Shown one piece after another: positions 1-38,877 of a DNA stretch of 53,559 nt (positions are counted from its first letter, which is position 1; every line of letters starts with the position of its first letter). Source of the stretch: Clostridia bacterium (GTDB taxonomy: Bacteria; Bacillota; Sulfobacillia; SLMV01); the NCBI GenBank assembly GCA_003551365.1, contig PUMM01000072.1, positions 1-53,559 of the forward strand, in the 5' to 3' direction. Position numbers and translations under genes: made by a program. The notes under the pieces are model-generated. The model was not told where the DNA came from, did not search any database, and was given only the letters and a program-made list of their open reading frames with translations.

Positions 1-456
1 GAAGAAGAAACCCCTCCGGCGACACCCGGCGACGGATACTACTATTCGTCCCACTATCCCTCCTCCGCGGTGCGGGTGAGCGATGAGGCCGAACTGCTGC
101 GCCTGGTAAATGAGGAGAGAGTGGAGCGCGGATTCACTCCCCTGCGCATCGATCCGGAACTCACCGATGTCGCCCGGGCCAAGGCCTGGGACATCATCGA
201 CAACAATTACTTTTCGCACACCTCACCCACCTACGGTTCGCCCTGGGACATGCTGCGCGAGGCCGGCATACCCTATGTGTACGCGGGTGAAAATCTGGCC
301 CGGGCCGGCAATGTGTGGGTGGTGCACTATCGTCTTATGAACAGCGATGGTCATCGCCGCAACATACTGCGCGAGCACTACACGCACGTGGGCATCGCAG
401 TACTGGATGCTCGGCCGTCCGGAGTAGTCGCAGTACAGCTGTTTGTGGGGCGCTAA
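1..456 (+). CDS. CAP/SCP (YkwD-like) domain protein, 5'-truncated by window edge
   Basis: Frame is open from base 1; motifs LVNEERVERGFTPLRID, YFSHTSP, AGENLA and HRRNIL are typical of the CAP domain. Confidence 0.88.
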   Translation, partial: EEETPPATPGDGYYYSSHYPSSAVRVSDEAELLRLVNEERVERGFTPLRIDPELTDVARAKAWDIIDNNYFSHTSPTYGSPWDMLREAGIPYVYAGENLARAGNVWVVHYRLMNSDGHRRNILREHYTHVGIAVLDARPSGVVAVQLFVGR

Positions 457-480
457 GGACGCCACCGGATGTTCCCCCCT

Positions 481-509
481 GCGGCCCGCGGGTTTTCCCG
501 TCGGGCCGC
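481..509. terminator. Strong hairpin between the tandem CAP genes
   Basis: GCGGCCCGCGGGTTTTCCCGTCGGGCCGC: GCGGCCC/GGGCCGC outer arms plus CGGG-TTTT-CCCG inner arms; no clear U-tract. Confidence 0.5.
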
Positions 510-625
510 GACACCCTAACCTCCATGCAGCATCGCGGCGTGGCTGACGGTCGTCCCCCGAGCGGTACGGAAAACTCCTCCGCAACATAAGCTGCATCGG
601 AACGGGAGGAGGTGAACCGCATCGG

Positions 626-1087
626 ATGAAACGTCCGGATGATGAAAGCCGGTGCCTCGCCCTGGCGAATGAGGCCCGCACTGCCCACAGGCTGCCCGCG
701 CTCCGACGCGATGCGCGGGTGCGCCGGTTGGCTCGAGAGCGAGCCGGCGACAACAGAGCCGGCCGACTCAGTCACCAGTCCCCGGCGGGCGGATCGCTGT
801 GGGATATGCTGCGTCAGGCCGGCATTCCGTTCGCCTACGCCGGAGAGAATCTGGCCCGGGCCGGCAATGTGTGGTGCGCGCACTGGATGCTGATGAACAG
901 CGATGGTCATCGCCGCAACATCCTGCGGGATCAATTCACCCGCGTGGGCATTGGGGTGGTGGACGCTGCGGGTTCCGGCCTGGTTGTGGCGCAGATTTTT
1001 CTGCGCCCGCACGGGTACAGAAGACCGGCCCGGCGCACCGGCAGGACCTGGATCATGCCGGCCGCCCGATATGGGAGAGGAAGGTGA
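626..1087 (+). CDS. CAP/SCP (YkwD-like) domain protein, tandem paralogue
   Basis: LALANEARTAHRLPALRRD, LSHQSP, AGENLARAGNVW and SDGHRRNIL; RBS gggaggaggtg upstream. Confidence 0.85.
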   Translation: MKRPDDESRCLALANEARTAHRLPALRRDARVRRLARERAGDNRAGRLSHQSPAGGSLWDMLRQAGIPFAYAGENLARAGNVWCAHWMLMNSDGHRRNILRDQFTRVGIGVVDAAGSGLVVAQIFLRPHGYRRPARRTGRTWIMPAARYGRGR

Positions 1088-1928: not shown

Positions 1929-2014
1929 TGGGTGAACGCCTGCGCGCAGGGGGAGTGGTCCATCTGATGAACGCAAAAATTCGTTATGGCAGATGATTGC
2001 TTGGAGGGCAGTGT

Positions 2015-3094
2015 ATGCACAGGTATCCGGGATTGTCCCTGGCTGCAGTGATGATTGCGCCCCCGCTTATCGTAGGATGTGCGGAGCATGGAGTGTGTGA
2101 CGCCGCCGGTGTCGAGTGGAGAGACCGGGTAGTGACGGTGAGCGGAGAGGGAGTTGAGGAACAGGGTATCACGGTCGGTGAGCTGACCGGCATGCATGGC
2201 GTTGAACGCGAGACCTCGCGTGAGGAGGATGACCGCACGGAGACGTTCGTGGTGCAGGCCGTGACCCTGGAGGGGCTGCTGACGGAGCTGGATATCGGGG
2301 TAGAGGTGCGGAGCGTGCGGCTCCGGACGGCAGATGGTTACTCCGTGCAGGTGCTGCCGGATGTCCTGCAGCGGTCCGAGCTCATTTTTGCCTGGGAGCG
2401 GGATGGGGAGCCGCTGCCCGGGGAGTCAGGGCCGCTGCGGGCATTCATTCCCGGCGAGGAGAGCCGGTACTGGATCAGTGACCTGGCGGAAATCGAGATA
2501 TCGGCGGTGGACGAGCAGTCCACATCTGTGTCCAGTCTGCATTTTCTGGAAACTCTGGTGGCAGAGACGGCTCGCCGGCAGACTGAAAGCGGTGAGGAGG
2601 CCGTACGGACCGGCGATCTTCTCGCGGGTCTGCCTATGGGGAACGAGGTCTCTCTGGCGGCAGCGGATGGCTTTGCAAAGAATGAGGAGTATGATGTGTT
2701 CATTGGCGAATGTATCGAGCTGACTGGCGAGAGCGCCCCGGCCTTTTTGGGAGCGGATCTGCCGCGGGGCATGCACGTGCGCGACCTGGTGTGGTTCACC
2801 ACCGGTGAGGCGGCCGTTTTGTGCGTGGGACGGGCACGTGAGGTGCTCGGAGATCTGCAGGTGGAGGGAAAGACCGGGACGCCCCTGGAGGAAGCTGCGG
2901 ACGCTCTGGATATGCTAGGTGCCGCCGAGTACATTCTGGAGATGGCCGACGGCCGCACTGCAAAGATCCCCGCCGATGACCTGGGGCGGGGGATTGTCTA
3001 CATGGATGAAGAGGGAACCGCGGGTACTGTGTTCGATGGCCTGCCACACGGAACGGCAATGCAGGGAGCCCTGTCCCTGCGGGTAGCCGAATGA
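2015..3094 (+). CDS. Lipoprotein with two oxidoreductase-molybdopterin-binding-like domains
   Basis: Signal with lipobox IVGC; two repeats of the degenerate fold (TLEGLLTELDIGVEVRSVRLRTADGYSVQV..GPLRAFIPGEESRYWISDLAEIEI); RBS TTGGAGGG. Confidence 0.65.
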   Translation: MHRYPGLSLAAVMIAPPLIVGCAEHGVCDAAGVEWRDRVVTVSGEGVEEQGITVGELTGMHGVERETSREEDDRTETFVVQAVTLEGLLTELDIGVEVRSVRLRTADGYSVQVLPDVLQRSELIFAWERDGEPLPGESGPLRAFIPGEESRYWISDLAEIEISAVDEQSTSVSSLHFLETLVAETARRQTESGEEAVRTGDLLAGLPMGNEVSLAAADGFAKNEEYDVFIGECIELTGESAPAFLGADLPRGMHVRDLVWFTTGEAAVLCVGRAREVLGDLQVEGKTGTPLEEAADALDMLGAAEYILEMADGRTAKIPADDLGRGIVYMDEEGTAGTVFDGLPHGTAMQGALSLRVAE

Positions 3095-24808: not shown

Positions 24809-24973
24809 TGAGTGCAGGAGCTGAGCGCGTCTGATCCGATGGATGGAGGAGGAATTCCGCTTCCCGATGGGGAAGTATGCGGGCGCAGACGGCGGAGTGC
24901 ACGGGACACGACCGCACCGCATCCGTCGTACGACAATTGCGCGATTCACCCGGCAAGGGGCTGCCGGTTTGCG

Positions 24974-24998
24974 GAGGTGGCGCGTCCTGCGCCACCTC
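24974..24998 (+). terminator. Hairpin downstream of amidohydrolase
   Basis: GAGGTGGCGC-gtcct-GCGCCACCTC, 10 bp perfect. Confidence 0.6.
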
Positions 24999-25239
24999 TG
25001 TTACTGGGTCAGGGCGGCGGGGGTCCGGCCCAGATGTTATAGCCCGTTTGCCAAACATAGCGTTTTCGTAGGGTAACATCAATGATATGCTGTTGGCGTG
25101 GACTCAGGATTCGAATGGGCTCTGCGGTTGCAGATGGGTTGGTGAGGTGCTGGCAGTAAGAATGCACGGATGTAGACTCAACGGTCACTTTGAGGAGGGG
25201 AGGGGGTAAGGTCCGGATATTTTCCGGATCTCCCGAGAT

Positions 25240-34416: not shown

Positions 34417-35799
34417 CTACAGGCGTCCGATCAGGACCCACCAGCTGATCTGGATCAGCACGGTGATCAGCGTTATGGCCGCCTGAGCCGGGAAGAATCG
34501 CAGGGTCTCCCGTTCGCTGAAGGCCCCGGTCTCACCCACACCAACCAGGATCATGAGATTGTGAAAGGGAAGGGCGATGCCCATGTTCGCCGTGCTGTAT
34601 ATGAGCAGTGCCGGTGCGAAGGACGGGACATCGAACTGTGCAGCCATGGCCATGAGCGGCGGCACCAGCATGGACAGGGTGGCCAGGACGCTCCCCACGA
34701 ACAGGTGCAGTACGAAGCCGGCCGCGGCCACGTAACCCAGAATGAACAGGTAGTGCTCGGATATCTGTGCCGGAAGGAGAAACTGCAGCAGCCATTCGGT
34801 GAGGCCGGTGGCCTCACTTATGGCTCCGATGGCCAGCGCGGCGGTGGCAAACAGCAGCGCGGACCAGTCCACGCCCTCCGATAGGTCCGACTCCCCCAGG
34901 ATCCCGCCTATACCGGGCAGAGCCATTCCGACCCCCACCCCCAGGGCCACCCATCCGGGATGAATGCCGTGCAGGGAGTCCGTAATCCACAAAAGAAGGG
35001 CCAGTGCAATCCAGGCCAGCACCCGCATCTCGTCGGCCGACAGACGCCCCATATCCCGCGCTTTCTTCCGCCAGGCGGCTGGATCTATGTTCAGGGGGAC
35101 CGGCTGGAAGACCAGGAGGTGGGCGCCCAGCATCAGGCCTGCTGCAGCCAGGGCGGGCACGCTCATGAGCGTTGCCCATTCCAGCCAGGAGATACCCCCG
35201 GCCAGCGATGCGGTCACCGGATTCAGGATGGCCTCGGAAGTGAGAAAGAGCATGGAGGCCGGGACCGACCCCATAAATACGCAGAACCCCAGACTGGCCC
35301 GCCCCTCCGCATCCACCCCGGATTCGCGGAGTATCTCCCACACCAGAGCCATGATGAGGAATGCGCGGGGAAAGGGGAGGGGGACCAGGGGGGCGAGGAT
35401 GAGGTTCAGACCGTATATCATTATCACCAGCTGGGTGTACGAGCGGACGTACCTGCTCACCAGACGCACGGCGATTCTGCGGGCCAGTCCAACCCGGGTC
35501 ACGCCCCGGGCGATGAGATAGGCTCCAATCATGAGCCAGGCCATGGGGGTGATCCAGAACCCGAAGAGGTCTTCCGGTGCGCCTATGCCGGTCACTGCGA
35601 AAAACAAGAGCATCGACATGGAGGTATAGGCAGGCGGTATGAGGGCCACAGCCCACCATATGACCGTCAGGAGGATGCCCACCAGGGCCACCCTGGTCTG
35701 CAGTGGCAGGCCACTGGAAGCCGTCATCCACCAGGCAATGAGCACTGCTACGGCGGACAGCAGGCCGGCCAGATGTCGCCGATCCATGTTATGTCGCAT
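34417..35799 (-). CDS. SLC13/DASS-family anion transporter
   Basis: About 12 TM segments; PPAYTSMSMLLFFAVTGIG, FVGSVLATLSMLVPPLMAMA; start set at MRHNMDRRHLAG. Confidence 0.85.
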   Translation of the reverse strand: MRHNMDRRHLAGLLSAVAVLIAWWMTASSGLPLQTRVALVGILLTVIWWAVALIPPAYTSMSMLLFFAVTGIGAPEDLFGFWITPMAWLMIGAYLIARGVTRVGLARRIAVRLVSRYVRSYTQLVIMIYGLNLILAPLVPLPFPRAFLIMALVWEILRESGVDAEGRASLGFCVFMGSVPASMLFLTSEAILNPVTASLAGGISWLEWATLMSVPALAAAGLMLGAHLLVFQPVPLNIDPAAWRKKARDMGRLSADEMRVLAWIALALLLWITDSLHGIHPGWVALGVGVGMALPGIGGILGESDLSEGVDWSALLFATAALAIGAISEATGLTEWLLQFLLPAQISEHYLFILGYVAAAGFVLHLFVGSVLATLSMLVPPLMAMAAQFDVPSFAPALLIYSTANMGIALPFHNLMILVGVGETGAFSERETLRFFPAQAAITLITVLIQISWWVLIGRL

Positions 35800-36587
35800 T
35801 TCTGACCCGCCCTCTCTCGGTATCGGGATCCGTCCGGGGCGGCCGTCGCTCCTTCGCCGCGGGCAGTCATCCAGCTGAGCGACAGTCGGCCCCACCCTGT
35901 TTGAGTTCTGCGATTTGCTGCAGGTACCTGCCGAGAAGATGTGATTAGTCGTCGGGAACTGTTCCCTCCCGCTCAGCTGAGAGAGGTGGCAGGCCCGGAC
36001 ACCGGAGGGGTGTGCAGAGGTTAGAGTTTTCCGGCAGTGCGCGCCCTGCGCCCCACGGATGGGGCGAGAGGGGAAGGCGCGGCGACAGCGGAAACTGCAT
36101 TCTTGCGGCAGCTCGACGCCTCCGGTTCTGGCCGCAGAACTGGGAGCGACGCGCCGGTCGGATAGTTCCAATCCCGCGGTGCGTCGCTGGAGGGGTGAGC
36201 CGGCAGTAGAACACAGAAAATCTCGTCTCCAGTGTCCGGGTGAGGGGGTAAAGATTCTGAGATGTGACGCAGCGCATTCGTTTCCGGGAGATCCGGCAGT
36301 CCATCGCCGGGCCGCCGCACGAACGGTTCTCGGCAGCGCCGGGTTCCGCTTGTGAGGACGGAGTAACGACGGTATGACGGTCGGCCGTCAGCAGCGAGGC
36401 GGAGCTGGGGCACGACCGGTGCGGGGCCGTCATCGGCGCGAAGCTGCGCCTGGCGGCGCTCCGACCCGTATGACCACCTGCGGCATTTTGTCTTGCGATG
36501 GACTCAGGTAGCACAGCCGGTTCCTCCCGTAGGAACCGAGGCCGGCCTTTTCCGCGTGGTTGCGCAGCCTGTAACGAGTAAAAGCGA

Positions 36588-36604
36588 GCCGATTCTAGTT
36601 CGGC
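36588..36604 (-). terminator. Candidate short terminator overlapping the riboswitch 3' edge
   Basis: Minus strand GCCGA-actagaa-TCGGC then TCGCTTTT; weak 5-bp stem. Confidence 0.3.
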
Positions 36605-36688
36605 AGCCCGGCCATCCCTGCCCTCTGGGCTCAGGATCCGCAGCTTTGCGTCCGCACCTTGCGATGCGTTTGCCTTTATCGCTGGAAG
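36597..36688 (-). ncRNA. Cyclic di-GMP-I (GEMM-I) riboswitch
   Basis: Minus strand AAAGGCAAACGCATCGCAAGGTGCGGACGCAAAGCTGCGGATCCTGAGCCCAGAGGGCAGGGATGGCCGGGCTGCCGAA matches the GEMM-I architecture: GGCAAAC, GNRA-capped hairpin, GGACGCAAAGC, receptor helix, GCCGGG..CUGCCGAA. Confidence 0.9.
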
Positions 36689-36727
36689 CGACCCGCCTCG
36701 GGTCCCCAATTGCTCTGTACGTCTAAC

Positions 36728-36756
36728 ATGATATCTGAGATTTACTGCCCGGGCAA
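36728..36756 (-). promoter_or_regulatory. Candidate promoter upstream of the c-di-GMP riboswitch
   Basis: Minus strand TTGCCC, 17-bp spacer, TATCAT. Confidence 0.45.
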
Positions 36757-36977
36757 GGCGGAGGCGGCATTATATGCGAAATACGTTGCCCGGCGTCCGC
36801 GCGGTGGCGCAAATCGTCGGGATGCCCGTCGTCGGGGCGGTGCGGTCTCCGTCGATGCGCGTCATTTGCTGCCCAAAGCCCGGAAACTCCGCTGCATCTT
36901 GTGTATTGGCCTTTTTTGAAATATGGTCATGATAGGTAATGATCCCACGTCTGGATGCGAGAAAGGGGCTGAGTGTC

Positions 36978-37898
36978 ATGTATGATGTGATTATCGTCGG
37001 TGGTGGGCCGGGAGGGCTCACGGCCGCTATATACACCAGCAGGGCCGGGTGGAATACCGCAGTCCTGGAGAAGGAGATGCCCGGCGGGCTAATGGCCAGC
37101 ACAGACGTTATCGAGAACTGGCCGGGGCGCCCGGCGGTCAGCGGGGCAGAACTGGCGGAGGATTTCCGGGAGCACGCGGAGCGTTTTGGGGCCGAACTGG
37201 TCATGGATGAGGCCCAGTCGCTCGACATCTCGTCTGAGGTGAAAACCGTTCGTGGGGCGGCTGGAGAGTATTCTGGCCGAGCACTGGTTCTGGCCACTGG
37301 TTCTGCCCCCCGCACCCTGGGAGTTCCCGGGGAGGCGAGGTTGACCGGCCGCGGCGTTTCGTACTGTGCTACATGCGACGGTGCCTTCTTCGGTGGGAAG
37401 GAAGTGGCCTGTGTGGGCGGGGGCGACGCGGCCGTGCAGGAGGCGTTATTCCTCACTCGTTTCGCCAGTAAGGTCTATCTCATTCACCGGCGGGATGAGC
37501 TCCGCGCTGTACAGGCTCTGCAGGAGCGTCTCTTCGCCAGTGAGCAGATCGAGGTCGTCTGGAATTCCGTGGTCGAGGAGATCATGGGAGACGAGAGCGT
37601 GACCGGTCTGCAGGTTCACAATGTGACGGTGGGACAGAGCAGGGAACTGCCGGTATCCGGAGTGTTCATATATGTGGGACACCGCCCCGCCACCGGGTTC
37701 GTGTCGGGCGAACTGGAGCTGGACGCCGATGGATACATAAAGGCAGATGAGGATCTGGGGACCTCCGTGCCCGGCGTATTTGCCGTTGGCGATGTCAGAC
37801 ACCGGCTGCAGAGGCAGATTGCCACGGCGGTGGGAGACGGGGCTACCGCAGCCATGGCCATTGAGGAGTACTTCAACCAGACGACTGCAGGGCGGTAG
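36978..37898 (+). CDS. trxB: Thioredoxin reductase-like FAD/NAD(P)-disulfide oxidoreductase
   Basis: MYDVIIVGGGPGGLTAAIYTSRAG; redox CATC in GVSYCATCDGAFF; VGGGDAAVQEALFLTRFASKVYLIHRRDELRA. Confidence 0.94.
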   Translation: MYDVIIVGGGPGGLTAAIYTSRAGWNTAVLEKEMPGGLMASTDVIENWPGRPAVSGAELAEDFREHAERFGAELVMDEAQSLDISSEVKTVRGAAGEYSGRALVLATGSAPRTLGVPGEARLTGRGVSYCATCDGAFFGGKEVACVGGGDAAVQEALFLTRFASKVYLIHRRDELRAVQALQERLFASEQIEVVWNSVVEEIMGDESVTGLQVHNVTVGQSRELPVSGVFIYVGHRPATGFVSGELELDADGYIKADEDLGTSVPGVFAVGDVRHRLQRQIATAVGDGATAAMAIEEYFNQTTAGR

Positions 37899-38481: not shown

Positions 38482-38877
38482 TCAACGGGTATCGGCAATC
38501 TGCCCTCCCAGCTCGCGCAGCACCGTCCGCACCCGGCGCATGCCGGAGCTGTCGACGGTGAGCAGCAGAGCCGGAGTGGGCCCGGTCTGCAGGTCGGCGT
38601 GTGCGACATCCGCAAGGGCTGAACGGGCCTTTCGGGCGGTGTGTACGGAGGCAAAGGTTATTCGCAGAGTTCTGCGCGTCACCGCCGGTTTGACTTCGGC
38701 GTCGTCGATCTGGCGGGCCGGAGGACCGACCGGATGCGGTCTGTGCCCGGAGCTGCCTTCGGTGTGTCTGATCGCGGAGCACCTCCCTGTCCCCATATGA
38801 TGCACAGCGACGGGGGGCACGTATTCCGGTTTACTTACGTTCGCCCACGCAGCGGGCATGTTATAATGATGTGTCAA
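38482..38877 (-). CDS. Possible small alpha/beta protein (start uncertain)
   Basis: RRTLRITFASVHTARKARSALADVAHADLQTGPTPALLLTVDSSGMRRVRTVLRELGGQIADT has a beta-alpha-beta-alpha pattern. Confidence 0.4.
   Translation of the reverse strand: MTHHYNMPAAWANVSKPEYVPPVAVHHMGTGRCSAIRHTEGSSGHRPHPVGPPARQIDDAEVKPAVTRRTLRITFASVHTARKARSALADVAHADLQTGPTPALLLTVDSSGMRRVRTVLRELGGQIADTR

Follow-up and report, generated by a model that had tools for sequence, protein, structure and literature searches.

The minus strand of the window, i.e., the whole 53,559-nucleotide stretch of DNA analysed here, carries a c-di-GMP-I riboswitch with its own candidate promoter and intrinsic terminator, followed by a long non-coding stretch and then by a gene for a sodium-coupled anion transporter. 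The switch probably governs this transporter via a very long structured leader, or else drives a non-coding RNA. The reading preferred here, held tentatively and with a probability of about 0.45, is that of a functional transcription-type c-di-GMP switch, at which read-through gives rise to a long, structured, and non-coding leader that runs into the transporter gene; the response to the ligand, the ON direction of the switch, and the transporter as the controlled gene are what we infer. A single unit composed of promoter, aptamer, terminator, leader, and transporter is the simplest arrangement, because the scan of the minus strand revealed neither a further promoter nor a further terminator ahead of the transporter. 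The features of the locus are listed below, where G001 denotes a genome of the same genus.

36978..37898, plus strand: thioredoxin reductase gene trxB, divergent (TIGR01292 above cut-off; synteny anchor)
36728..36756, minus strand: candidate sigma-70-type promoter, TTGCCC-N17-TATCAT (consensus scan)
36684..36698, minus strand: 5' strand AGGCGGGUCGCUUCC, able to form P0 with the 3' arm of the terminator or, alternatively, a small 5' hairpin (pairing table, duplex energies)
36598..36683, minus strand: aptamer (RF03167 and RF01051, covariation of helix P2)
36580..36604, minus strand: intrinsic terminator GCCGA-ACTAGAA-TCGGC TCGCTTTT (terminator scan; counterpart in G001)
36512..36537, minus strand: hairpin GGUUCCUACGGGAGGAACC, which contains GGAGG and is followed by a GTG (sequence; equivalent in G001)
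36298..36504, minus strand: predicted domain closed by helix A, AGUCCAUCGC (36504-36495) with GCGAUGGACU (36307-36298) (separate folding of both species)
35994..36240, minus strand: predicted domain closed by helix B, CCCGGACACYGGAG (36240-36227) with CTCCGGTGTCCGGG (36007-35994) (separate folding; arms within exact runs)
34417..35799, minus strand: DASS/SLC13-type sodium-coupled anion transporter gene (Pfam PF00939, E 6e-25, and PF03600)

Aptamer and promoter

The Rfam scan of the window identified the stretch 36598-36683 of the minus strand as a c-di-GMP-I-GGC riboswitch (RF03167; 67 bits against a cut-off of 59, E 9.7e-14), the match being full-length (model positions 1-80 of 80). The original prediction had assigned this element to GEMM-I, and the covariance-model check bore this out, since RF01051 (c-di-GMP-I/GEMM-I) matched at 36599-36684 of the minus strand with 71.4 bits against a cut-off of 35 and over model positions 1-87 of 87; nevertheless, the GGC variant of c-di-GMP-I is the better family name for the aptamer. 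When 14 related aptamers were aligned, helix P2 was 100% paired, with four of its six pairs doubly compensated. In the Vc2 numbering, the residue at the specificity position looks like G, i.e., like the c-di-GMP type, whereas the pilM riboswitch of Geobacter discussed below senses cGAMP.

The candidate promoter TTGCCC-N17-TATCAT (36756-36728), also proposed earlier, was recovered by the scan as the sole minus-strand promoter-like site in 35.7-37.0 kb, the scan being limited to sigma-70-type sites, and transcription on the minus strand would be expected to start near 36721. At the aligned position G001 has TTGTCG-N17-TAGGGT, a site that was not called by the consensus scan.

Terminator and expression platform

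Immediately after the aptamer lies an intrinsic terminator, the element that was missing from the original prediction. Its stem (36604-36588), followed by a U-tract, overlaps the aptamer end at 36598, and its 5' arm is the aptamer 3' strand. In G001 the terminator is found in the same place (GCCGAACTGAAATCGGC TCGCTTTT), while in the window the riboswitch's own terminator is the sole minus-strand terminator-like site between trxB and the DASS gene. The aptamer and terminator are 80-86% identical to those of G001 (in 50-nt steps), compared with 39-44% identity at the fourfold-degenerate sites of trxB and DASS, which argues that the switch is under selection and is not decaying.

According to the preferred mechanism RNA polymerase would start near 36721 on the minus strand and make the aptamer. 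Without ligand the aptamer 3' strand, GGGCUGCCGA, would pair with the downstream UCGGC.GC to give the terminator, and the transcript would end near 36580. With c-di-GMP bound the aptamer would retain its 3' strand and read-through would follow, the flanking P0 being able in this state to hold the other arm of the terminator. The read-through transcript would thus comprise an untranslated structured leader of about 780 nt and continue into the DASS/SLC13 gene. The ON direction is favoured by the analysis of this layout, because the aptamer 3' strand is sequestered in the terminator. The pilM ON riboswitch of Geobacter (PMC9262584) likewise builds its terminator from the aptamer's own 3' strand and the strand immediately downstream.

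The pairing P0 joins the strand 5' of the aptamer to the 3' arm of the terminator (AGGCGGGUCG against CGGCUCGC plus the initial U's of the U-tract), and 87% of the cells pair across 14 loci. P0 could be either an antiterminator, in the case of an ON switch, or the terminator itself, in the case of an OFF switch, the latter because it abuts the U-tract. An OFF switch, in which the ligand would stabilise P0 before the U-tract, would be in line with the duplex energies, P0 being the stronger pairing (-17.4 kcal/mol versus -8.7 kcal/mol for the terminator hairpin), and c-di-GMP-I OFF switches such as Cd1 exist (PMC9262584). However, the loop spanned by P0 measures about 100 nt, the local hairpin agrees with the ON layout of pilM, and P0 covaries weakly: a single pair (G-C to A-U) is doubly compensated, and of 2000 partner shuffles 79 did equally well. 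We regard the OFF direction as unlikely.

Coding content of the stretch between aptamer and transporter

From the aptamer to the DASS start (ATG at 35799), which belongs to the first same-strand gene, there are 798 nt, and no further promoter or terminator was found between them. This agrees with the earlier description of some 800 nt lacking a convincing reading frame before the SLC13 gene: every long frame in the gap has a negative coding score (-0.14 to -0.26 per dicodon, compared with about +0.2 to +1.0 for the genes of the window). No conserved ORF after the aptamer was found by dicodon scores or by comparison with G001, and no other RNA worth keeping was found in the leader by the Rfam scan up to E 5. 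The hairpin at 36512-36537 looks like a module for starting translation, yet no conserved protein begins with it. An insertion element or repeat was also considered and rejected, the 13-nt motif of the leader having only four perfect copies in the genome (two in the leader, one in a coding region, and one outside called ORFs); a 21-mer of the leader is perfect in two species only.

Conservation and long-range structure of the leader

Past the terminator the leader is 59-60% identical to that of G001, compared with 44% for shuffled sequence. Conservation of the whole leader above the neutral level of the fourfold-degenerate sites was considered and had to be tempered: other intergenic stretches of the same species pair are nearly as similar (mostly 56-57% for longer ones, up to 70% or more for shorter ones), so that the overall identity of the leader is not special. 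It is the islands and helices alone that stand out. The longest exact runs shared with G001 measure 22 nt (CTTTACCCCCTCACCCGGACAC) and 21 nt (GGTGTCCGGGCCTGCCACCTC), while in a DASS coding stretch of equal length the longest exact run is at most 19 nt. These two runs hold the arms of a 14-nt inverted repeat, which lie about 220 nt apart and are mutually complementary. When the window and G001 leaders were folded separately, the pair probability was 0.95-1.0 for the 7-bp core of helix A (CCAUCGC with GCGAUGG) and 0.85-1.0 for the core of helix B in both species.

The leaders of both species fold below their shuffles (z of -2.8 and -4.2, 20 shuffles each), and the consensus fold of the whole leader on the riboswitch strand reached z of -3.4 to -4.7 against column shuffles. 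The opposite strand gave a weaker signal and a coding stretch one close to zero, while a hairpin-rich intergenic control gave a consensus-fold signal equal to or above that of the leader. It is possible that the islands of the leader are paired DNA motifs rather than RNA helices, because the two sequences show no compensatory change. Among 154 genomes of the class, G001 alone gave a homologue of the leader exceeding short fragments; at the sensitivity used the element is absent from the other class genomes, and it is known from two species of one genus.

Neighbouring genes and other aptamer copies

The order DASS, leader, terminator, aptamer, and divergent trxB is identical in G001, where the DASS protein is syntenic and 77% identical; the transporter of the window falls below the family cut-off of TIGR00785. 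The trxB gene is a synteny anchor and not the riboswitch target. In another relative, the same-family genome G003, the DASS gene has no upstream aptamer and follows gatD in the same direction, which counts against the transporter as target. In G006, a genome of the same family, an aptamer divergent from trxB has a gene for a secreted transglutaminase-like protein no more than about 80 nt downstream. The gene content of the window's genome (MurT/GatD, SpoVT/AbrB-like) points tentatively to Bacillota, and the single scan of named genomes gave a remote archaeal transporter as its sole match.

The genome carries eight c-di-GMP-I aptamers, the window copy included, and 59 of 61 relatives have at least one copy. 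Consequently, the earlier designation of the riboswitch as an orphan holds for its distance to a gene and fails for isolation, this being one of eight copies. To our knowledge, orphan c-di-GMP riboswitches are rare. The resolved targets of the other copies are ordinary c-di-GMP targets lying close downstream, namely, genes for a transglutaminase-like protein, a type IV pilin, a TasA/camelysin-like protein, flagellar rod proteins, and a beta-helix surface protein, while the ORF behind one further copy (C48) has no Pfam match. Compared with the copies of the genome whose targets were resolved, it is only the window copy that is followed by about 800 nt devoid of a coding frame. In the class a candidate gene begins no farther than about 340 nt away for 25 of the 27 well-scoring copies, the remaining two being at a contig end, and this far shorter usual distance makes the 798-nt gap weigh against the leader reading.

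Thus the locus resembles the RF03167/RF01051 families in its full-length matches above cut-off, in the presence of all helices, of its own promoter, and of its own terminator, and in belonging to a regulon of surface, pilus, and flagellar genes across the genome; it differs in the distance to the gene and in the structured non-coding stretch lying between. Tandem c-di-GMP-I switches before COG1305 transglutaminase-like genes have been reported in Bacillota (PMC12452182), and other copies of the genus and family precede such genes, although at this locus there is none.

Alternative interpretations

Alternatively, the gap, devoid of a coding frame, may be part of an independent structured non-coding RNA several hundred nucleotides long (about 35930-36720) that works in trans or stores c-di-GMP, the transporter being a mere neighbour; we consider this possible, but clearly less probable than a leader of the transporter. 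The near-perfect islands of 21-22 nt forming a long-range helix in both species and the consensus fold on the riboswitch strand are consistent with it, and there is a precedent in merRNA of Bdellovibrio bacteriovorus, a 445-nt c-di-GMP riboswitch RNA with no conserved ORF downstream (PMC3627812). This is the only studied orphan c-di-GMP riboswitch that we found, and it is believed to store the messenger. Both loci have a riboswitch followed by several hundred nucleotides without a conserved ORF; however, merRNA was measured as an abundant stand-alone RNA, whereas here the transporter gene follows on the same strand without an intervening terminator. The lack of a minus-strand terminator between leader and DASS in the scan and the restriction of the element to two species of one genus speak against a stand-alone RNA. 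On a par with it we place a genus-specific RNA of about 600 nt gated by the 5' c-di-GMP riboswitch, which might act in trans, store c-di-GMP, or form with its two closed long-range domains a second regulatory layer on the anion transporter.

The arrangement in G006, where the aptamer beside trxB drives a transglutaminase-like gene, together with the hairpin bearing a Shine-Dalgarno sequence and GTG that the leader retains at similar spacing, would fit a relic, i.e., a switch that once served a surface-protein gene, for example, a transglutaminase-like one, which was lost in the genus. A decayed gene of this kind in the gap was sought by tblastn with seven proteins (the transglutaminase and others of the regulon) and rejected, the scores against the leader being no better than those against shuffled leaders. 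In addition, both species keep the aptamer, terminator, and promoter; the aptamer of G006 shares only 65% identity with the window copy and is more similar to others (as much as 83%); and at another place in the genome (copy C79) there is still a transglutaminase gene that has an aptamer of its own. With no relic found and the switch well conserved, the decayed target that the original prediction had offered is less likely than a live switch, and we hold it to be doubtful. The small gene which it had also offered could be a protein read from the GTG at 36514, with GGAGG about 8 nt before it in both species and long open frames after it. Nevertheless, the frames of the two species are not homologous, the alignment gaps are not multiples of three, the identity by codon phase is 0.64/0.55/0.60 in the gap versus 0.84/0.92/0.46 in trxB, and the coding scores are negative, which makes such a protein very improbable. 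Of the three options proposed earlier, it is therefore the long leader or non-coding RNA that gained support, from the layout kept in G001, the long-range helices, and the lack of a second minus-strand promoter or terminator.

Besides merRNA, a second orphan case that is kept across species and bears conserved long-range helices would demonstrate either that an anion transporter can be under c-di-GMP control by way of a very long leader, or that non-coding RNAs can be gated by riboswitches. How widely the lineage uses the GGC variant is also apparent from the genome's regulon of pilin, flagellar rod, transglutaminase-like, and TasA-like genes.

Other observations in the window and related genomes

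In G003 (L085, C158) the DASS gene lies after murT-gatD in the same direction, while in the window DASS is convergent with murT-gatD; a second SLC13-like permease lies divergent from trxB. In L087 (G004:C9) and L088 (G007:C11) the contigs end no more than about 11 nt from the matched 5' end of the DASS gene.

A weakly scoring frame at 38482-38877 on the minus strand resembles a frame of G005 in the same neighbourhood (L086:2-280) and, because of this similarity, probably represents a genuine small gene that runs against the direction of its neighbours. The intergenic region 24812-25239 contains two well-conserved hairpins common to G001, one of which is GGAGGTGGCGCG..CGCCACCTC. In G001:C318 (L098) an aptamer copy stands before a secreted protein resembling a CAP/SCP-domain protein, and the frames at the start of the window (1-1087) look similar to this CAP/SCP-domain-like protein. 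Finally, the plus strand carries at 1762-1895 a molybdenum/tungsten cofactor riboswitch (RF01055; 65.6 bits, cut-off 36), which is missing one internal stem of the model and lies some 100 nt ahead of the gene at 1997-3094.
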